DNA from: Olsenella massiliensis
Lineage (GTDB): Bacteria; Actinomycetota; Coriobacteriia; Coriobacteriales; Atopobiaceae
Direction of reading: 5' to 3'
NCBI RefSeq assembly: GCF_001457795.1
Contig: NZ_LN898211.1
Location: 310,001-374,000, forward strand
DNA length: 64,000 nucleotides
Positions 24,246 to 35,901 of this stretch are shown piece after piece (position 1 is the first letter of the stretch; each line of letters opens with the position of its first letter). The notes beneath the pieces are model-generated. The model made no database searches. It worked only from the letters and a program-made list of their open reading frames with translations, and was not told the DNA's origin. Position numbers and translations under genes: made by a program.

Positions 24246-27200
24246 CTACCCGCGCCGGCGCCCCCTGCGGGCGAGGATCGCCCCGCCTGCGACGAGGCCG
24301 AGGGCGCAGGCGGCGAGGTAGCTCGCCGCGGGGCTGGTGTCGTCGTCGGTCCTGGGAAGCGCGACCTGGGCGGGCTTCGGCTCGGGATAGACGTTGGTGA
24401 AGGTGGCGTCCGCGCCGTCCGGCGCCGAGCCCGCCTTGGCGTCCCGCGCCGTGCCGCCGCTCGTGAGGGTCGTCGTGCTCCCGGTCACCTCGAGGACGCC
24501 CGCGCCCACGTCCTCGACCGTCACCGTGAGCGTGTACGTCGCGTCATCGTAGGCGCAGCCGGCGTCGCCCTTGGTCTCGGCGAGCGTGTAGGTGTAGGTG
24601 CCGGGCATCGTGAAGGCGATCTTGCCGAACGTTGTCGTGCCCTCGCCCGTCACGTGCGCGACCTTGCGTCCGTCCGCGGCGTCCGCGGGCATCGGGAAGG
24701 ACGGGTCCGTGGGCCTCAGGACGAACTCGAAGTCGTCGGGCGTGGCGGGCGCCGGCCCCTCGACGCGCTTTTGCGCGGACGGCTCGTAGCTCGTGGGCGT
24801 GGGGGCGTAGGTGTTGGTGACGGTGAAGCCCTCCAGGGCGCTACCCTCGACGCCGCTCGTCGTGTAGCCGGCGACGGGGTCCTCCGTCACGGCGTAGTCG
24901 ATGGGCACGCCATTGGTGTATTCGGGAAGGTCTTTGAACTCGTAGCGCCAGCCGGAGGCCTCGTCCATCGTGACCGCGTCAACCTCCTTGCCGTCGGCAA
25001 GCAGGTGGATCGTGACGCTCTTGGCGGCCGGGCCCACCCACTTCTTCTGGACGGGAATGGTGACGGTGCCGGTAAGAGTGTTGGTGATCGAGGCGGTGTC
25101 CTTCTCGACGGTCGCCGGCTGCGTAGCCTCGTAGTGCTCCACCGCGTCCTCGGTGACGGTGTAGGTGATGGCCTTGCCGCCAGCGTTTACGGGCACGGAG
25201 CCAAAGCTGCCCTTCCAGCTGCCGTCCGGGCCGGCGACGAGCGCCAGTGACTTGACCTTGGTGCCGTCGGCCAGCAGGTTCAGGGTGATGGACGCGGGAC
25301 GCAGGCCCCGCCCGTCGTTGTCATCGACCCAGGTCTTGGTTACGTTGATGGTGCGCTCGGCCGGCTTGTGGGTGTTGGTGATGGTAAAGCCCTTGGACTG
25401 CGAACCCGTGACGGAGCAGCTATAGCCCTTAGGCACCGCGGTCTCCGCAACGCTGTAGGAGACGGCCTTGCCGTCGCCGTCGTAGGTGTCAAGGCCCTCA
25501 AACGAGAAGGCCCAGGAGTCCGTCGCCGTGAGCGTGGCGGTCTTGCCCGTGTCTTTGCCGTTGGCGCGCAGGCTCACAGTCACGCTCTCGGGCCTGATGC
25601 CGTCCTGGTCGTTGGCGTCATCCCAGACCTTGGAGCCCTTGATCTGAATCTTGGGGTTGACGAGCGTGTTGGTGACCGAGCGGCCGTCCGCCCCGTAGGT
25701 CACGGCAAAGTCCTTGGACGCCAGCGTCAGCGTGCCGTCCTTCTCGCCCTGCTCGCGCACGGTGTAGACATAGGCCTTGCCGGCGCCGTCGTACAGCACC
25801 AGCCCCCCGAACGTGGCCTGCCAGTTTCCGGCGGCGCTGAGGGTTTGGGTGGCGCCGGTGGCGACGCCGTCGCGCAGGAGCTCGAGCGTCACGAAGAGGT
25901 TGGCCGTGCCCGAAGGCGAGATGCCCGCCCAGGTCTTGGTGACGGTCAGGTCCTTGGTGGGAACGAAGACCCAGCGCCCGTAGACGGTCTCGTCCTTGCG
26001 GATGTTGAGCGTGGTGATGACGTCCGTGCCGCCCTGCTCGTGCGTCCAGCCCGCGAACGTCCAGTAGCCCTGGACCTCCTGGCCGTCCTTGGTGGCCCCC
26101 GACTGGGTGGTCGTGAGCGCCTGTGCCAGCGTCTGGGTGGCGTCATATTCGATGTCACTGACGCTTGCGGGTGTGGTGCTGTCCCCGGGCGTGCCGTAGA
26201 CGGGGTCGGGCGAGACCACGTAGTCTAGGGTGTAGGTCTTAGTTGCCTTGTGATAGGTGGTCTCCGAGGGGATGTCCTTGTCGTGACCCTCGACGGAGGT
26301 GATGCGCGCCGTGTTGACGAAGGTCGTCGACCGCACGAGGTCGCCCGTGAGGGCCGTGGGGATGCTGAGCGTCATCGTGGCGCCCGCCGGCAGGGAGCCG
26401 ACGCCCAGGGTGAGCGTGCCGTCCTTCTCGGAGGCGGACACCGAGGTCGCCGTGGTCAGGGTGGCGTTGGTAAGCTTGAGCTCGGGGCAGGTCACCTTGA
26501 TCTGGTCGCGCAGCACCGAGAGGCCCTCGGGGATGGGGTCCTGTATCACGATGTCCCTGAGCGCCAGCTCCGTGCCCTTGTTGGTGACCGTGAGGGTGTA
26601 GGTCACGGGCGTGCCCTTTGTGTTGTCAATCTGGGTGGGCGCGTCTTTGGTGCCCGTGGCGGGCTCGGACGCCTTGTGAAGCTCAAGGTCATAGCCCAAA
26701 AGCTTGATTTTGGCAGAAGCTTCGTAGGGCTGGACCTTGTCGCTTGCAGATGCAGCCTGGCCCACAAAGGTGCGAGCCATCGCACACACGGGATTGACTG
26801 CCTGCCTGCCTACGAGCGCCTCGTCTGTGGGTGCCACCATGTGCACGTATGCGCTGGCGCCGGTGCCGTAGTTCAGCGAGAAGTCGTTGCCCTTGTTCGT
26901 CTTGGTGCAGTCTATGGCAATGGCCTTGATGCTGGCCTTGTTGGCAGGCTCGGTGGTGCTCCACACGCTCGTGTTGGAGATGTCCATCTGAGCTGCAGTC
27001 GGCACCTTGGTGGCATAGTACACCACAGGAGCGCAGGTCTCACCGGGGTGATTCCACGACTCTTTTGCCTTGATGGAGCTCAGGTCAACCCAGTCAAACG
27101 TGCCTCTCCAGGCACTACTTTCGGTTGTGGAACCGTTTTCGAGGATGTCATAGAACACAAGGCTATCCGTGCGGGTGCTGTTGGACGCGCCAAAGGAGAG

Positions 27201-30200
27201 CTGGTAGGAGTACTTGTTGCCCAGATACTCGCTCGTCTGGTTGCCGTAGAGCTTGTCGTGGTCGTTGGCAACCTTCTTGGTGACGCCCGACTGCTTGACC
27301 GTGACGGGGTTGTAGTCAATATAGGTCTGCTGCAACGCCCATTCTGTGGGGTCATCCTTGATGAGGTCTTGGTAGTACTGCCGATTGAGGTAGCTGGGGT
27401 TGGTAAACGCCCCCGACAGGTCTTTTTTGGTAGCGCCTGACGTGTCGTGGAAGGCGACGGTGTTGAGCACCTTGTTGCCGCGGTCAGCCACGTTGTGGTA
27501 GGAGTTTGCAAGCGGGTAGCGAAGACGCAGCCCAAACCCATGCTCACGCAGCTTGGCGGCACCCGTCATCTCGTCGGGTACCGTGACCTCAACAATCATC
27601 ATCGTAAGGCCCGAGCCCTCCCAGTTTTCCTGGAAACGCACAGAATAGGCGTCCTTGGGGAGCCTGTCGTTGCCCCAAGGGTCGATGAACATCTGCACCT
27701 GCGAGGCGTCCACCGAGGTTCCGGCGGGAAGCAGGTCATAAAACACGCCCGACGTGACAATGTAGGGCTGAAGGTAGCTTTTGTCCTTATAGCCCGAGCC
27801 CCACAGCGAGGAGTAGGTTCTGAACATGGCGTTGACCCAGCGCGTCTGAACGCCCGTGGCGGCATCGTCTATAAAGTATGTGCCGTCAAGCTGCGATTTT
27901 TCAAGGTACGTAGTAAAGGTGAGACCTCTGAGCCGTGCGGCGGCAACACGAGCGTCCTGATAGAGCGTGTTGATGCTGCCCTTCTGCTGTCCGCCCTCAA
28001 ACAGGCGCAGCGAGGCACTCGTGGCGAGGGATGTGGGCTGCTCTGCCTGCATGTCTGCAGCAATCAGGCCTTTGAGATGTGCGGAGGGATGCAAGGTCAG
28101 CGTAGTGGCGGCCGTGAGGGAGGTGCGGAAGTACTGGCTGCGCACACGATACTTAAGACCCACGACCGAGTCGGGAAGTGTCACCGTAGAACCCTTGGTG
28201 GGCTCGCTGCCGTCAGCGGGCGTGAAGGTGTAGGTAGGCGTCGTGCCCGTGTAGCTTACGCTGAGAGTACCAAACAGCTCATAGTCAGTTGACCCCGCCT
28301 TGCGAATGAGAATGTCGGTGGTACCGAGCTTCTGACCGTCAAATCCCTGTCCCGAGACAAGCTGCCATGTTCCCTGGGCTCCCGGCGTTGCGTCTTGACC
28401 AGAGAGCCCAAAGGACACCGACGAGTAGCTGTAGTCCGCATCCTCAAGCTCGGTCATCGTGGGCAGCACCTCGCTGGCCGGGCGGCGATCTCGGAACTTG
28501 TTCTCGGTCACGACTCGAGGCGTTGCCTCCTCCACCTCAGCCACGTAGGGCGTAACGCTGTACGTCTTGGTTGCCGCGTCCCAGGTGGGAGTGGTCGGGG
28601 GTTGAAACGTTGCCCGCGTGGTGAACGTCGGCCATGACTGATTGGTGAGGGCGGCATCACGATCTTGCGTGATAAACGTCTGGGCAAACTGGTACCAGTC
28701 ATACTCGCTCGATATGCGAGAGTTCTTGGTAATGCCCAGCTCTCCGCCATAGGGCCGTACATACACGTTAGTATCTGCCTCGGCATACTTTTTATCACGC
28801 GTCACGCCGTTGGACTGCGTCTCTTGGACGGAGACCTTGTTGTGCACGGGAAGGCCGTCGTGCTGAAGGTCCACGCCCCGTGCCTTGGCCTCCTCAAGCA
28901 GCGAGATGGGGTAGCGCTCCAAAAGCGCGTAACGGACGGTGTTGTAGGTGGCCTCATATCCATTGTTCCAGAGCCAGTTCTCAGACCACGGGTTTGCCTT
29001 CCGGTATTCGGGGTCAAACTGCTTGAGCATGCCCACGTTGGGCTCGTCCGTGTAGCTGCGCCAGCCCTCCTTGGTGATATCCCTATAGGAACTATCCGTG
29101 TTGCCGTTGAGATATTCAGGACGTTCAAAGCCATGTTTATTTCGGCCATAGCGCTGGATGCCGATGAGCTCGCCGTCCTGCTGCTCCTGTCTGAACATGT
29201 AGGTATAGGGAATGGTGTTGTCGGCAGGACGTTTTACGTCTGCATGCCAGATCACGTAGAAGTACTGGTCCGCGTCAGCGGGCTTGGTTCCCCAAATGTC
29301 CTGCCAAGCGAGGTAGACCCCATCGTCTGGGGTGAGGTCAGCGTGCTTGAGAGCTATGCTCATATCACTGTTCTTGTTATGCAGCTCGCTCGTAAGCTGT
29401 CTGGCAATGGACGTCTCGTTGCTGCCGTCATTGTTCTGGTCAACCGTGAGGGTGGCATCATACGACGCATGCGTCACGCCGGCCCCGTCCACCTTCACGT
29501 GGCTTGCCGTAAACGAGAAGCCCTGCTCAAAGTAGAACTGAGCGCCCCCTGCAAGGGTGTTGTAGTTGGTGATGGTAAGCGTGCCGTCGCCGTTGTCCAC
29601 GTAGTTGAAGTCGGCGCTCGCAGAGGTCTGGGGTGCCTCCACGAGCTGCCATTTGAGCGTGGGATTATACCTTCCCCCGTTGTACATATCGTAGTTCACG
29701 TTGCTCGTGCCGTCCCAGCCCCTATAGAGGGCCGCGGGCACGGTGATCTTGATGCTCCCGGGAGGGAAGGTCTCATTTGCGGGGGCGTTGATCTTGAGCG
29801 ACACGGACGCCGTCGCCGTGAGCGAGCCACGGTTGTTCACGGGGTGGAAGATGAGGTTGGTGTGGTTGGGGTCGGCCGCCTCGTCGTAGCTGTAGGCCGT
29901 AACGCTGGGGCCCGCGGCGTTGGTCCAGTTGATGTTGAAGTCAAAGGACGACGCTTGGGCGGGCGCTCGCACGGCGGGAGCGCTTACCGCCTGGCCCTGC
30001 TCGGGCGCGTCCTTGTCTGAGGCAGCCGCGTCTAATGATGCCGGGTCTCCGTCCGTGGTGCCGGTCGCGACTACGCCGGCAGCGTCATCGGCGGCGGACT
30101 CATCTCCTGCCGACGGAGCGGAGGACTGTTCCTGGGCGGCAGACTCGGTAGCGCCCAGCACCTCGGCGAGAGCCGGCGCAACAAGCAGGGACAGCACGGC

Positions 30201-30260
30201 AACGGGAACCAAAACCATAAGTAGCAGATGAATCAGGCGGCGAGTCGAAGAATGTCTCAT
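24246..30260 (-). CDS. Giant cell-wall-anchored adhesin with Cna-B repeats and pilin-like domain
   Basis: A 2004-residue secreted protein. Signal peptide 1-32 (RRLIHLLLMVLVPVAV..., APALA cut). A Ser/Ala/Asp-rich spacer runs to about 100. A large beta-rich head of about 1050 residues is not recognised. A DUF11-like domain lies at about 1190-1290 (YTLTVTNKGTELALRDIVI). An InlB B-repeat lies at about 1335-1430 (WTFAGWTHEQGG). Four Cna-B domains follow at about 1430-1820, each with Lys in VTKTW-like starts, a central YTVxE and a closing TNT, the triad for internal isopeptide bonds. A Spy0128/FctA-like pilin domain is followed by LPRTD, a hydrophobic helix and RRGRRRG. The sorting motif is LPRTD instead of LPxTG. 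I prefer the ATG at 30260; a TTG at 30284 is possible. Confidence 0.9.
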   Translation of the reverse strand: MRHSSTRRLIHLLLMVLVPVAVLSLLVAPALAEVLGATESAAQEQSSAPSAGDESAADDAAGVVATGTTDGDPASLDAAASDKDAPEQGQAVSAPAVRAPAQASSFDFNINWTNAAGPSVTAYSYDEAADPNHTNLIFHPVNNRGSLTATASVSLKINAPANETFPPGSIKITVPAALYRGWDGTSNVNYDMYNGGRYNPTLKWQLVEAPQTSASADFNYVDNGDGTLTITNYNTLAGGAQFYFEQGFSFTASHVKVDGAGVTHASYDATLTVDQNNDGSNETSIARQLTSELHNKNSDMSIALKHADLTPDDGVYLAWQDIWGTKPADADQYFYVIWHADVKRPADNTIPYTYMFRQEQQDGELIGIQRYGRNKHGFERPEYLNGNTDSSYRDITKEGWRSYTDEPNVGMLKQFDPEYRKANPWSENWLWNNGYEATYNTVRYALLERYPISLLEEAKARGVDLQHDGLPVHNKVSVQETQSNGVTRDKKYAEADTNVYVRPYGGELGITKNSRISSEYDWYQFAQTFITQDRDAALTNQSWPTFTTRATFQPPTTPTWDAATKTYSVTPYVAEVEEATPRVVTENKFRDRRPASEVLPTMTELEDADYSYSSVSFGLSGQDATPGAQGTWQLVSGQGFDGQKLGTTDILIRKAGSTDYELFGTLSVSYTGTTPTYTFTPADGSEPTKGSTVTLPDSVVGLKYRVRSQYFRTSLTAATTLTLHPSAHLKGLIAADMQAEQPTSLATSASLRLFEGGQQKGSINTLYQDARVAAARLRGLTFTTYLEKSQLDGTYFIDDAATGVQTRWVNAMFRTYSSLWGSGYKDKSYLQPYIVTSGVFYDLLPAGTSVDASQVQMFIDPWGNDRLPKDAYSVRFQENWEGSGLTMMIVEVTVPDEMTGAAKLREHGFGLRLRYPLANSYHNVADRGNKVLNTVAFHDTSGATKKDLSGAFTNPSYLNRQYYQDLIKDDPTEWALQQTYIDYNPVTVKQSGVTKKVANDHDKLYGNQTSEYLGNKYSYQLSFGASNSTRTDSLVFYDILENGSTTESSAWRGTFDWVDLSSIKAKESWNHPGETCAPVVYYATKVPTAAQMDISNTSVWSTTEPANKASIKAIAIDCTKTNKGNDFSLNYGTGASAYVHMVAPTDEALVGRQAVNPVCAMARTFVGQAASASDKVQPYEASAKIKLLGYDLELHKASEPATGTKDAPTQIDNTKGTPVTYTLTVTNKGTELALRDIVIQDPIPEGLSVLRDQIKVTCPELKLTNATLTTATSVSASEKDGTLTLGVGSLPAGATMTLSIPTALTGDLVRSTTFVNTARITSVEGHDKDIPSETTYHKATKTYTLDYVVSPDPVYGTPGDSTTPASVSDIEYDATQTLAQALTTTQSGATKDGQEVQGYWTFAGWTHEQGGTDVITTLNIRKDETVYGRWVFVPTKDLTVTKTWAGISPSGTANLFVTLELLRDGVATGATQTLSAAGNWQATFGGLVLYDGAGKAYVYTVREQGEKDGTLTLASKDFAVTYGADGRSVTNTLVNPKIQIKGSKVWDDANDQDGIRPESVTVSLRANGKDTGKTATLTATDSWAFSFEGLDTYDGDGKAVSYSVAETAVPKGYSCSVTGSQSKGFTITNTHKPAERTINVTKTWVDDNDGRGLRPASITLNLLADGTKVKSLALVAGPDGSWKGSFGSVPVNAGGKAITYTVTEDAVEHYEATQPATVEKDTASITNTLTGTVTIPVQKKWVGPAAKSVTIHLLADGKEVDAVTMDEASGWRYEFKDLPEYTNGVPIDYAVTEDPVAGYTTSGVEGSALEGFTVTNTYAPTPTSYEPSAQKRVEGPAPATPDDFEFVLRPTDPSFPMPADAADGRKVAHVTGEGTTTFGKIAFTMPGTYTYTLAETKGDAGCAYDDATYTLTVTVEDVGAGVLEVTGSTTTLTSGGTARDAKAGSAPDGADATFTNVYPEPKPAQVALPRTDDDTSPAASYLAACALGLVAGGAILARRGRRRG

Positions 30261-30369
30261 ATTTAAGCCCCAGTTTTCTGACAATAAGCCAAGTTACAGT
30301 ATGGCATACATCAGACGCCGGGACCTACCCGATTGCCCATTCAGCTGCTTTTTTTCCTGAGCGGCAGGC

Positions 30370-32339: not shown

Positions 32340-33098
32340 TCAGTCGGACGGAGCCGAGACGACGGCCTCGTCCTTGGGAACGCACACGAGCACGCTCCTG
32401 CCGTTGGTGCCGTCCTCGGTGTAGTACTCCTTGTAATAGTTGCAGGTGACGAGCGACAGCACGTGGCTGGCGCCCTGGACGACCTGCGCGGCGTCGGGGC
32501 GCTTGGTGACGGCCTTGTCGAGCAGGCCCTGAAGGTAGGTGCGGCGCTCGTCGTCCGACGCGAAGTTAAACGTGCGGACGGTCTGGTCGTCGGCGCGCGC
32601 GTAGTACATGAGCAGGGGCTCGAGCTCGTAGGCGCCCTGTTCGGTGACGTACCAGACCGTATCGGTCCGGTCAAAGGCCGCCTGGTCGTCCAGGGCGGCA
32701 ATCTGCTCAAACATCGTTCCGTTGAGCAGGTGATGGCCATAGATGATGCTCTGGGCGTCCGTCATGCCGGGCGCGGCGTTCTGATAGTCGAGGAAGAGCT
32801 GGCCGCTCAGCAGGTAGTTGCCCTCGGCCGAGTGGCGCAGATAGCGCTCGTTGTCGTCGGCCTGGTAGACCGCGTAGTTTATGGTGGTTCCCGGCACGTA
32901 GAGCCAGCCCACGACCTCGTCGTTGATGGCCTTGAGGCCCGCCCAGTCAACCTCGGGCGCGCGGTTGGGCTGGTCCCAGACGGTGGCGTAGGCGGCGAGC
33001 TTCTGCTGCTCTACGTCAACCTCGTGGTAGCGCCACTGGTTGAAGCCCCAGAGTCCCGCCGCGACGAGCAGCATCACGACGCCCACCACGATGAGCAC
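32340..33098 (-). CDS. Class B sortase, 5' end missing
   Basis: Transpeptidase that joins sorting-signal proteins to the cell wall or to each other. The visible part has a membrane helix (LIVVGVVMLLVAAGLWGF) and the sortase B fold with IIYGHHLLNGTMF (catalytic His), VLSLVTCNYY (catalytic Cys) and NGRSVLVCVP (catalytic Arg). The only in-frame start is a GTG at 33098 inside the membrane helix, without a ribosome site. The frame stays open upstream to about 33254, encoding a Pro/Ala/Ser-rich stretch typical of a cytoplasmic tail. An adapter-like junction follows at 33266. I infer the true start is the ATG at 35427, now separated by a misassembled insert. Confidence 0.85.
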   Translation of the reverse strand: MLIVVGVVMLLVAAGLWGFNQWRYHEVDVEQQKLAAYATVWDQPNRAPEVDWAGLKAINDEVVGWLYVPGTTINYAVYQADDNERYLRHSAEGNYLLSGQLFLDYQNAAPGMTDAQSIIYGHHLLNGTMFEQIAALDDQAAFDRTDTVWYVTEQGAYELEPLLMYYARADDQTVRTFNFASDDERRTYLQGLLDKAVTKRPDAAQVVQGASHVLSLVTCNYYKEYYTEDGTNGRSVLVCVPKDEAVVSAPSD

Positions 33099-33265
33099 CG
33101 TGGAGGCGACGTTGCGGGCGCTGCGGGCGGAGTGAGGTGCGACGCCTGGCGCGGACCTCGGCGCCGATGCGGGAAGCGGCGCGGAGACCTTCGGGCCCTT
33201 CGTCGAGGCGGACGGCGCCGCCGCGGCCGCGGCCGGCCTTGAGGCCCTCTCCCTCTAACACCTCT

Positions 33266-33284
33266 AGCTGCGTATAAGGGACAG
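33266..33284. other. Tn5/Nextera mosaic-end-like junction (assembly artefact)
   Basis: AGCTGCGTATAAGGGACAG matches the 19-base mosaic end used in tagmentation libraries at 16 positions. Homology to chorismate synthase starts directly after it (TGLPAGIGSPPF) and the frame is closed by a stop inside it. The sortase frame breaks on the other side. Confidence 0.75.
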
Positions 33285-33751
33285 GCACGGGCCTGCCCGC
33301 AGGCATCGGCTCCCCCCCGTTCGACGGCATGGAGAACCTCCTTGCCCGCGCCCTCTTTGGCATCCCCGCCGTCAAGGGCGTCGAGTTTGGGCGTGGCTTT
33401 GCGGCGAGCGAGCTGCGCGGGAGCCAGAACAACGACCCCTACCGCATGCGCGAGGGCCGGCCTCGGCCCGTCACGAACAACGCCGGCGGCATCCTGGGCG
33501 GCATCACCACCGGCGCGCCGGTCGTGGTCAGGGTGGGCGTCAAGCCCACCCCGAGCATCGCCGCTCCCCAGCGCACGGTGGACCTCGCCACGCTAGAGGA
33601 CGCCGAGCTCGCGGTGCGCGGTCGCCATGACCCCTGCGTCGCCGTGAGGGCCGTCCCCGTCGTCGAGGCGCTCTGCGCCCTCGTCGTCCTGGACGCCTGG
33701 CTCTCGTACCCGCCCGAGCCGGCACCCGCCGCGACCGCCCGCCACGACTGA
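33285..33751 (+). CDS. aroC: Chorismate synthase, C-terminal fragment on a misplaced segment
   Basis: About 155 residues of chorismate synthase: TGLPAGIGSPPFDG, then IPAVKGVEFGRGF, GSQNNDPYR, RPVTNNAGGILGG, TTGAPV and KPTPSIAAPQ, a region holding the FMN- and EPSP-binding loops. The first half or more is missing. Upstream of 33285 the frame meets a stop within a mosaic-end-like sequence, so the truncation is a junction and not natural decay. An ATG at 33329 is an internal methionine. It reads into pheA in operon order, so the genome presumably has a complete aroC elsewhere. Confidence 0.88.
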
Positions 33752-33767
33752 CTGGGAGACTGACGCC

Positions 33768-34913
33768 ATGGAGCAACTCGAGGACGTCCGCGACAAGATC
33801 GACGAGATCGACCATGCCCTGCTCGACCTCATGGTGAGGCGCACGGAGCTCGCGGCGGACGTCGCCGCCTACAAGGCGGCGCACCACCTGACCGTTCTTG
33901 ACCGCGCCCGCGAGCGCCGCGTGGTCGCCGACGCCCGTCGGCGGGTGCCCGAGGACCTGAAAAGCCATGCCGCCGCCCTGATGGAGCTCCTCATGGAGGC
34001 CTCGCGCACGCGGCAGGGCGACATACTGGGCGCGACGTCGCCCGCCATCGAGGCCATCGACGAGGCGCTGGCCGTGGCGCCCGCGCTCTTTCCCACCGAC
34101 GCGCTCGTGGTGACCCAGGGGGTCGAGGGCGCCTACCAGCAGATCGCGACCGAGCGCATCTTCAGCCACGCCCAGATCGGCTACGTCGGGTCCTTTGAGG
34201 GCGTGTTCGAGGCCGTCGAGGCCGGGACCTGCGACTTTGGCATCCTGCCCCTGGAGAACAGCACGGCCGGCACCGTCAACCAGGTCTATGACCTCATGAT
34301 GCGCCATGACGTCCACATCGTGCGGAGCTGTCGCGTCAAGGTGAACCACAATCTCCTCGCCAAGCCTGGAACCAGGCTCCAGGACGTCACGGACGTCTAT
34401 AGCCACGAGCAGGCCATCCGTCAGTGCGAGGCGTTTCTCGCCACGCTGCCGGGCGTGCGCGTGCACGTGACGCGCAACACCGCCCTGGCCTCAAGGTTCG
34501 TGGCCCAGAGCGACGAGCCGGGCGTCTGCGCGCTGGCCTCGCGCGAGTGCGCGGAGCTCTACGGCCTCAGGGCGCTCGCCAAAAACGTCCAGGACAACGA
34601 CAACAACTACACGCGCTTCGCCTGCATCGCAAAGGGTCTCACCATCTATCCCGGCGCCGACAGAAGCTCGCTCATGCTCGTGGTCCGTCACCGCCCGGGC
34701 GCCCTCTACCGGGTTTTGGGCATCTTCTTCGCCCTGGACATCAACATCACCAAGCTCGAGAGCCGTCCGATCCCCGACCGCGACTTCGAGTTCATGTTCT
34801 ACTTTGACGTCGCGTGCCCCGCCGCCTCCCCCGCGTTCAGGCGGCTGGTCAAGGAGCTCGGCGACGTCTGCGAGGAGTTTCGGCACCTCGGAAGCTACGC
34901 GGAGGTCTCCTAG
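33768..34913 (+). CDS. pheA: Chorismate mutase / prephenate dehydratase
   Basis: A 381-residue bifunctional enzyme of phenylalanine synthesis. Residues 1-90 are an AroQ-type chorismate mutase (RDKIDEIDHALLDLMVRR, VAAYKA). Residues about 110-290 are prephenate dehydratase (GVEGAYQQIA, GILPLENSTAGTV, and NNYTRFACI with the catalytic Thr and Arg). The end is an ACT domain with LESRPIP, the usual phenylalanine feedback site. It is complete and follows the aroC fragment by 16 bases and precedes aroE by one base. It lies on the segment bounded by adapter sequence, so its true genomic position is probably elsewhere. Confidence 0.94.
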   Translation: MEQLEDVRDKIDEIDHALLDLMVRRTELAADVAAYKAAHHLTVLDRARERRVVADARRRVPEDLKSHAAALMELLMEASRTRQGDILGATSPAIEAIDEALAVAPALFPTDALVVTQGVEGAYQQIATERIFSHAQIGYVGSFEGVFEAVEAGTCDFGILPLENSTAGTVNQVYDLMMRHDVHIVRSCRVKVNHNLLAKPGTRLQDVTDVYSHEQAIRQCEAFLATLPGVRVHVTRNTALASRFVAQSDEPGVCALASRECAELYGLRALAKNVQDNDNNYTRFACIAKGLTIYPGADRSSLMLVVRHRPGALYRVLGIFFALDINITKLESRPIPDRDFEFMFYFDVACPAASPAFRRLVKELGDVCEEFRHLGSYAEVS

Positions 34914-34914
34914 C

Positions 34915-35127
34915 ATGGCCGGCACGGGCGAGCGGCGCTTTGGGCTTTTGGGGCGCACGCTCGCGCACAGCTGGTCGCCCGCCATTCACGCGCGCCTGGG
35001 CTCCGCTCCCTACGGCCTCTTCGAGCGCGAGCCCCAGGATGTCGCTGACTTCGTGCGCAACGGCGGCTGGCGCGGCCTCAACGTCACGATACCGTACAAG
35101 CGCCGCGCCTTTGAGCTCGCGGACGAG
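34915..35127 (+). CDS. aroE: Shikimate dehydrogenase, N-terminal fragment cut by adapter
   Basis: About 71 residues of the substrate-binding domain: FGLLGRTLAHSWSPAIHARLG (shikimate-binding SWSP) and GLNVTIPYKRRAFELADE (with the catalytic lysine of NVTIPYK). After LADE the reading frame continues directly into Illumina adapter sequence, so the rest of the gene is lost from this place. The gene starts one base after the pheA stop. Confidence 0.88.
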
Positions 35128-35202
35128 ACATCGGAAGAGCACACGTCTGAACTCCAGTCACGCCAATATCTCGTATGCCGTCTTCTGCTTGAAAAAAAAA
35201 AA
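35128..35202 (+). other. Illumina TruSeq index adapter with poly-A tail (contamination)
   Basis: From about 35128 the sequence is the standard indexed adapter: TCGGAAGAGCACACGTCTGA and onward, the six-base index GCCAAT (35162-35167, known as index 6), then the ATCTCGTATGCC...CTGCTTG end (to 35191) and eleven A (35192-35202). This is the read-through pattern of a short library insert and is not bacterial. Its translations give the well-known database artefact peptides such as EEHTSELQSR and RRRHTRYWRDWSSDV. Confidence 0.98.
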
Positions 35203-35393
35203 CACCCCCCTCTGCACGCTCTTCTCCCGCTCGGACCTGGGGCGCCCCGCTCCCCTGCTCGTCGCGTGTGGCCGGGAGGTTGGAGGTTGGAAGAGCACAC
35301 GCCTGAATGCCAGCAACGCCCATCTCACGTCTACAGCCTCCTTCTCCCGAAATTAACCGACACCAGCGAGACGTGTCTAGACGTGTATAAGAG
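35203..35393 (+). other. Low-quality sequence, second degenerate adapter copy and mosaic-end-like junction
   Basis: After unexplained sequence to about 35287, a second, error-rich copy of the indexed adapter runs from about 35288 (GGAAGAGCACACGCCTGAAT) to about 35355. It is followed by a P5-like stretch and then AGACGTGTATAAGAG (35379-35393), which matches 14 of the first 15 bases of the tagmentation mosaic end. Nothing here supports a gene. Confidence 0.85.
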
Positions 35394-35427
35394 CGTGGCG
35401 CAGGTGCTTGCTCGTGCCCTGGCCCAT
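35394..35427 (-). CDS. Probable 5' end of the class B sortase gene
   Basis: Three bases after the purE stop an ATG opens a frame (MGQGTSKHLRH) with GGAGGG seven bases upstream. It is cut after 11 codons by the adapter junction. The sortase body at 32340-33254 lacks a start and ends at the other junction, so this is very likely its first exon-like piece. Some bases between the two pieces may be lost or wrong, because an in-frame TAG occurs at 33255-33257. Confidence 0.6.
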
Positions 35428-35430
35428 CCG

Positions 35431-35901
35431 CTAGCCCTCCGCCATCTGACGCTTGAAGTCAGCCATGACCTGGGCGTATCTCTCGTCGGAGGTGGCGAGG
35501 ACCTGCGTCGCGTAGATGGCGGCGTTCTTGGCGCCGTTGATGGCGACGCAGGCGACGGGCACACCCGAGGGCATCTGGACCATGGAGAGCAGGGAGTCCA
35601 TGCCGCCGAGGTCGCTCGTCTTCATGGGAACGCCCACGACGGGCAGCGGGGTGAAGGCCGCGACGACGCCGCCCAGGTGGGCCGCCTTGCCGGCGGCCGC
35701 GATGATGACCTTGAGACCGCGATCGCGGGCGGACGAGGCCCAGGCGTGAACCTTGTCCGGCGTGCGGTGGGCCGAGGCAATGACGAGCTCATAGGGCACG
35801 CCGAACGCCTCGAGCTGCTTGGTGCAAGCCTCCATGGTCGGCAGGTCCGACTTTGATCCCATGATGATTCCCACGAGGGGCTTCTGCTCGCTGTCTGCCA
35901 T
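35431..35901 (-). CDS. purE: N5-carboxyaminoimidazole ribonucleotide mutase
   Basis: A 156-residue class I PurE that converts N5-CAIR to CAIR. The start is the ATG at 35901, which has GGAGG six bases upstream, giving MADSEQKPLVGIIMGSKSDLPTM. SKSD (about 14-17), SAHRTP (about 41-46, catalytic His) and AGKAAHLGG are present. It is the first gene of a set purE-sortase-purM-purN once the adapter-bounded insert is removed. A purK partner is not seen in the window. Confidence 0.95.
   Translation of the reverse strand: MADSEQKPLVGIIMGSKSDLPTMEACTKQLEAFGVPYELVIASAHRTPDKVHAWASSARDRGLKVIIAAAGKAAHLGGVVAAFTPLPVVGVPMKTSDLGGMDSLLSMVQMPSGVPVACVAINGAKNAAIYATQVLATSDERYAQVMADFKRQMAEG

Follow-up and report, generated by a model that had tools for sequence, protein, structure and literature searches.

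A displaced aroC-pheA-aroE piece between sequencing adapters: a near-certain assembly artefact in the sortase gene of an Olsenella massiliensis genome

Why should part of an aromatic amino-acid operon lie inside a sortase gene? The question is raised by a 64,000-nucleotide stretch of an Olsenella massiliensis assembly (contig C13, positions 310001-374000; “the window” below), one of 13 contigs totaling 1.82 Mb and listed as 97.07% complete with an estimated contamination of 0.26%. Reading frames and profile searches place purE, a sortase gene, purM and purN on the minus strand, with purE separated from the sortase body by plus-strand sequence: the C-terminal part of aroC, a complete pheA, and the initial 71 codons of aroE (Table 1). 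A first-pass annotation, made from the sequence alone, had described this arrangement as it stands, with the end of aroC, pheA and the beginning of aroE lying between two sortase parts. It is almost certainly an artefact of assembly, in which mate-pair adapters went untrimmed and the aroC-pheA-aroE piece was wrongly placed in the sortase gene. The true gene orders are probably purE-sortase-purM-purN and aroB-aroA-aroC-pheA-aroE/K-aroQ, with both the sortase and the aromatic operon intact in the organism.

Table 1. Features of the purE-sortase region, by position in the window.
Feature	Coordinates	Strand	Details
Sortase body without a start	32340-33246	-	TIGR03064, 139.9 bits (cut-off 153.75); Pfam Sortase, 33.9 bits
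Degraded 38-bp mate-pair junction adapter	33247-33284		29/38; best of 200 shuffles 23/38
aroC, C-terminal part	33285-33751	+	68% to G002 AroC residues 231-383, from 33290; TIGR00033 profile 209-345; belongs on C12
pheA (chorismate mutase/prephenate dehydratase), complete	33768-34913	+	genome's only copy; belongs on C12
aroE, N-terminal part, 71 codons	34915-35127	+	77% to G002 AroE residues 9-72; TIGR00507 profile 3-73; belongs on C12
TruSeq read-2 adapter, index GCCAAT, P7 tail (24/24), 11 A	35128-35202	+	73/74 over 35128-35201
81 bp between the two TruSeq copies	35203-35283		genome search: only matches of at most 25 bases
Degraded second TruSeq index adapter copy	35284-35357	+	51/74; best of 200 shuffles 39/74
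Junk ending in a mosaic-end-like stretch (35379-35397, 15/19)	35358-35397		38-mer score 22/38, within shuffles
Sortase 5' stub, MGQGTSKHLR (first 10 codons)	35398-35427	-	ATG at 35427, GGAGG upstream, 4 nt after the purE stop
purE	35431-35901	-	TIGR01162, 196.6 bits (cut-off 149.6); TAG stop 35431-35433

The decisive mark is at the right edge of the piece, and is one that the first-pass annotation did not mention: a TruSeq index adapter followed by poly-A, at 35128-35201. Homology to AroE stops at 35127, the base directly before the adapter, and the aroE part therefore ends there; the right boundary proposed earlier, at the second mosaic-end-like sequence, is for this reason about 250 bp too far to the right. 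The index-plus-P7 part of this adapter is also printed in three published papers. No origin was found in the assembly for the 81 bp that separate the adapter copies, tblastx giving just short, weak matches.

At the left edge, the adapter in question is a palindrome composed of two mosaic ends joined tail to tail. Two mosaic-end-like sequences had originally been taken to flank the piece, and they are the best two in the window: 33266-33284 matches the mosaic end AGATGTGTATAAGAGACAG at 16 of 19 positions and the right-hand one at 15, with the third-best match at 13/19. The pair is suggestive of an adapter but does not decide the matter, because shuffled sequence can do as well: among 200 first-order shuffles of the window, the chance baseline for all adapter matches, the best mosaic-end match was 16/19 in one and 15/19 in seven. 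Taken alone, the right-hand match is weak, being within reach of chance on the latter count; extended to a 38-mer (35360-35397) and compared with the junction adapter, this end also stays within the shuffle range. AroC homology does begin at the left junction, as had been claimed, although not exactly: it starts six bases past the adapter. The combination of junction adapter and TruSeq adapter points to a mate-pair library rather than to the plain tagmentation of the original reading.

On the sortase side, both halves described by the first-pass annotation were found: the body lacks a start, and the start codon, with its ribosome-binding site, lacks a body. The frame of the body is open from the adapter edge to its stop, the first start codon in frame being a GTG at 33098; lacking its N-terminus, it stays below the curated cut-off for class B sortases (TIGR03064). 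In the related genome G004, the sortase begins MAGGTGRHLRRS at the corresponding place after purE, and 6 of 12 residues are identical between this start and the stub, all in the first 10: the sole 6/12 match among the 7412 six-frame positions of the G004 locus. With 33247-35397 removed, about 180 nt would separate the purE stop from the sortase residue at 33098; the distance between the purE and sortase matches is 70-345 nt in 14 relatives, and 932 nt in L028. The sortase is probably intact, as the earlier reading had it, but the junction may have cost it a few residues of its N-terminal tail.

The neighborhood that had been proposed for the site without its insert, purE next to the sortase, is the one seen in relatives. 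Counts cover 11 genus- or family-level loci (L022-L032, of 20 returned; order-level loci L033-L040 left aside) and nine named loci (L060-L068, of 11 returned; two Oscillospiraceae loci, L069 and L070, left aside), two of the nine being the same contigs as two of the 11. The two genes are together on one strand in all of the first set and in eight of the second, the exception, L063, beginning 141 bp before the sortase, where it is cut by the contig end. No match to pheA, aroC or aroE was found beside the purE-associated sortase in any of the 20 relative loci. By this sortase the organism is closest, among the named relatives listed, to Olsenella sp. RUG161 and Olsenella profusa F0195 (68-69%).

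A class-B-like sortase is a conserved companion of purE across the family, mostly before purM and purN. In the window, directly downstream of purN, is a 2012-residue surface protein (24246-30284, minus strand) with Cna-B, FctA-like and DUF11 domains and an LPRTD-type C-terminal tail, a candidate substrate for the sortase.

Where, then, does the aromatic piece belong? The first-pass annotation had supposed that it came from elsewhere in the genome, and its home is indeed identifiable on contig C12, where the order is aroB-aroA-aroC (residues 1-138)-junk gap-aroE (C-terminal part)/aroK-aroQ, without pheA. The parts are complementary. The Pfam chorismate synthase profile is covered from 194 to 327 in the window and from 1 to 127 on C12 (146760-147149); compared with the 389-residue AroC of G002, from the same genus, residues 1-138 are on C12 and 231-383 in the window, while for the fused AroE/AroK of that genome (426 residues), 9-72 are in the window and about 161-426 on C12. 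A whole-genome search with E up to 10 found the middle parts of the two genes nowhere else in the assembly. A complete aroC and aroE next to pheA, which the first-pass annotation had suggested looking for elsewhere in the genome, did not turn up either: there are only incomplete parts and no second pheA, and it is the complementary parts on C12 that reveal the origin of the piece.

In relatives, the two aroC parts are separated by 219-276 nt and the two aroE parts by 231-291 nt (eight loci measured); compared with these, about 220-290 nt are missing at each edge, so that the piece and the C12 ends do not abut. Adapter searches of the genome found no recognizable adapter in the C12 gap. Part of this gap instead repeats, over 63 bp and at 92%, a sequence that C12 has 3.4 kb away, as might be expected from a mate-pair join. 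The order aroA-aroC-pheA-aroE/K-aroQ is unbroken on one strand in all six relatives fetched at length (G001-G004, G007, G009). Neighbor counts in shorter loci were taken over 11 of 20 returned (L002-L012, ten from the same genus or family and one from the same order; order-level L013-L020 left aside): both aroE parts are beside pheA in ten, and the aroC parts as well in nine, L012 being cut by a contig end and order-level L009 giving a pheA match alone.

The aroQ at the end of the C12 cluster has a peculiarity of its own. Its frame (L044, 6738-7721, minus strand, downstream of aroE/K) joins a PTS EIIB domain (PF00367, 39.1 bits, cut-off 27) to a class II dehydroquinase (PF01220, 176.6 bits), and the same fusion is present in all six relatives examined (L110-L115). 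It could link PEP-using sugar uptake to PEP-using aromatic synthesis; a full-text literature search found no paper on such a fusion.

It is the matching hole on another contig that makes the piece in the sortase gene an assembly error rather than biology, and the sequences on either side of the junctions are not neighbors in relatives. Could the genome nevertheless have been truly rearranged, the piece having moved into the sortase gene and the adapters just filling nearby gaps? The piece is single-copy, and the C12 cluster of this assembly does truly lack it, as a rearrangement would have it; such an event is highly improbable, however, given adapter sequence, which no organism carries, at both edges, the breakage of both aroC and aroE with about 220-290 nt lost on each side, and the content of the piece, whose gene-length coding frames are the aro genes and pheA, with no transposase seen among the reading frames of 33285-35127. 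Even less probable is contamination from another organism in the sample: the assembly is a draft, but the piece supplies just those aroC and aroE parts that are absent from C12 as well as the genome's only pheA, its G+C (0.65-0.73) is like that of the flanks, its pheA is closest, among the matches listed, to a same-genus genome (73%), and the contamination estimate for the assembly is 0.26%.

Mosaic ends were derived from the ends of Tn5, and a further possibility is that a natural Tn5-like element carried the genes and left the mosaic-end-like sequences behind as its remnants. This is the least probable of all: a TruSeq index, P7 tail and poly-A are synthetic, most mosaic ends in the assembly (22 of 34) form 11 tail-to-tail pairs, which is the form of the library junction adapter, and no transposase frame was seen between the ends. 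The same gene order was found in none of the 20 relative loci.

Assembly error being the preferred explanation, a plausible course of events can be outlined. The genome would have been sequenced at least partly from an Illumina Nextera Mate Pair library, its chemistry consisting of tagmentation, circularization through the 38-bp junction adapter and ligation of TruSeq adapters, and trimming would have been incomplete. Weakly covered GC-rich spots in aroC, in aroE and at the 5' end of the sortase gene would have left gaps, and low-quality reads running into junction or TruSeq adapter may have been kept and built into the ends of the piece and the sortase gap. The 1.84-kb piece between two weak spots would then have become an island with adapter ends, which scaffolding or gap filling may have set in the sortase gap instead of the gap on C12.

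Adapters are not confined to this site. The assembly contains 34 mosaic ends at up to three mismatches (control, 0), the tail-to-tail pairs being adjacent; the 38-mer, at the same tolerance, occurs at ten sites, one of them exact (control, 0), each site scoring on both strands because the sequence is a palindrome. Three sites of the genome have the TruSeq read-2 adapter, and next to the exact junction adapter on C12 there is a read-1 adapter, matched at 28/33 (L087). More degraded junction adapters are also present, and both kinds of adapter lie inside contigs at many other places (L083-L101). Across 396 genomes of the class, the 38-mer was found in three: the source genome (10), G057 (12) and G112 (28). 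All three also have a TruSeq adapter, versus none of 17 others tested, and the completeness listed for each of the three is at least 97%.

Are the genes at the other sites also displaced? The flanks were given to Pfam as 14 pairs, along with the single flanks L089 and L090. A family was recognized on both sides in eight pairs, and in three of these (IMS/IMS_C at L086, Dus at L088, UvrD_C at L094) the two flanks are one gene in order, so the adapter there merely fills a gap in place. The families differ in five, and the remaining six pairs have a family on one side or none. The other sites thus cannot be called misplaced, and the site in the window is the one shown to be so; the genes at the others are likely broken in the assembly only.

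Annotated literally, this genome would have three broken genes, the sortase, aroC and aroE, together with an out-of-place pheA in a purine operon, and such a reading might yield the call of an aromatic amino-acid auxotroph; all of these are most likely artefactual. Biological interest is accordingly low, and the value of the case is as a data-quality warning. The same adapter signature marks doubtful spots here and in G057 and G112, and can thus serve as a simple screen. There is a somewhat better than even chance that public genomes contain a small, systematic class of errors, flagged by junction adapters within long contigs and invisible to completeness and contamination scores: filled gaps, operon pieces on the wrong contig, false gene breaks, and false pathway losses. 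No published report of the error in this genome was found, in literature searches made by terms other than the strain name.

The combination of junction adapter and TruSeq adapter fits the Nextera Mate Pair kit, which, in the excerpts available of PMC6298255, involves tagmentation with biotinylated junction adapters, circularization, shearing and ligation of indexed TruSeq adapters, with junction-adapter trimming by NxTrim as a standard step afterwards; an excerpt of PMC7357533 gives the same 38-mer as a circularizing (“ring”) adapter. The present case resembles carry-over from this kit in combining, within a single assembly, TruSeq adapters with the 38-bp pair of mosaic ends joined tail to tail, and differs in that the adapters are deep inside long contigs, one set flanking a piece from the wrong contig. 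A survey by Moeller et al. (2024; PMC11536531) reports that Illumina adapters in published microbial genomes harm assembly accuracy and contiguity, that 1,110 of 15,657 species assemblies are adapter-enriched at p<0.01, and that adapters, detected with a TruSeq 12-mer, are concentrated at contig ends; nowhere does its text use the word Nextera. Here, in contrast, the adapters are mate-pair junction adapters, and are inside contigs. NxRepair (PMC4458127) addresses Nextera mate-pair assemblies of bacteria in which disparate genome regions have been joined: distant regions are likewise joined here, but whereas NxRepair relies on insert sizes, the error in the O. massiliensis assembly is visible in the sequence.
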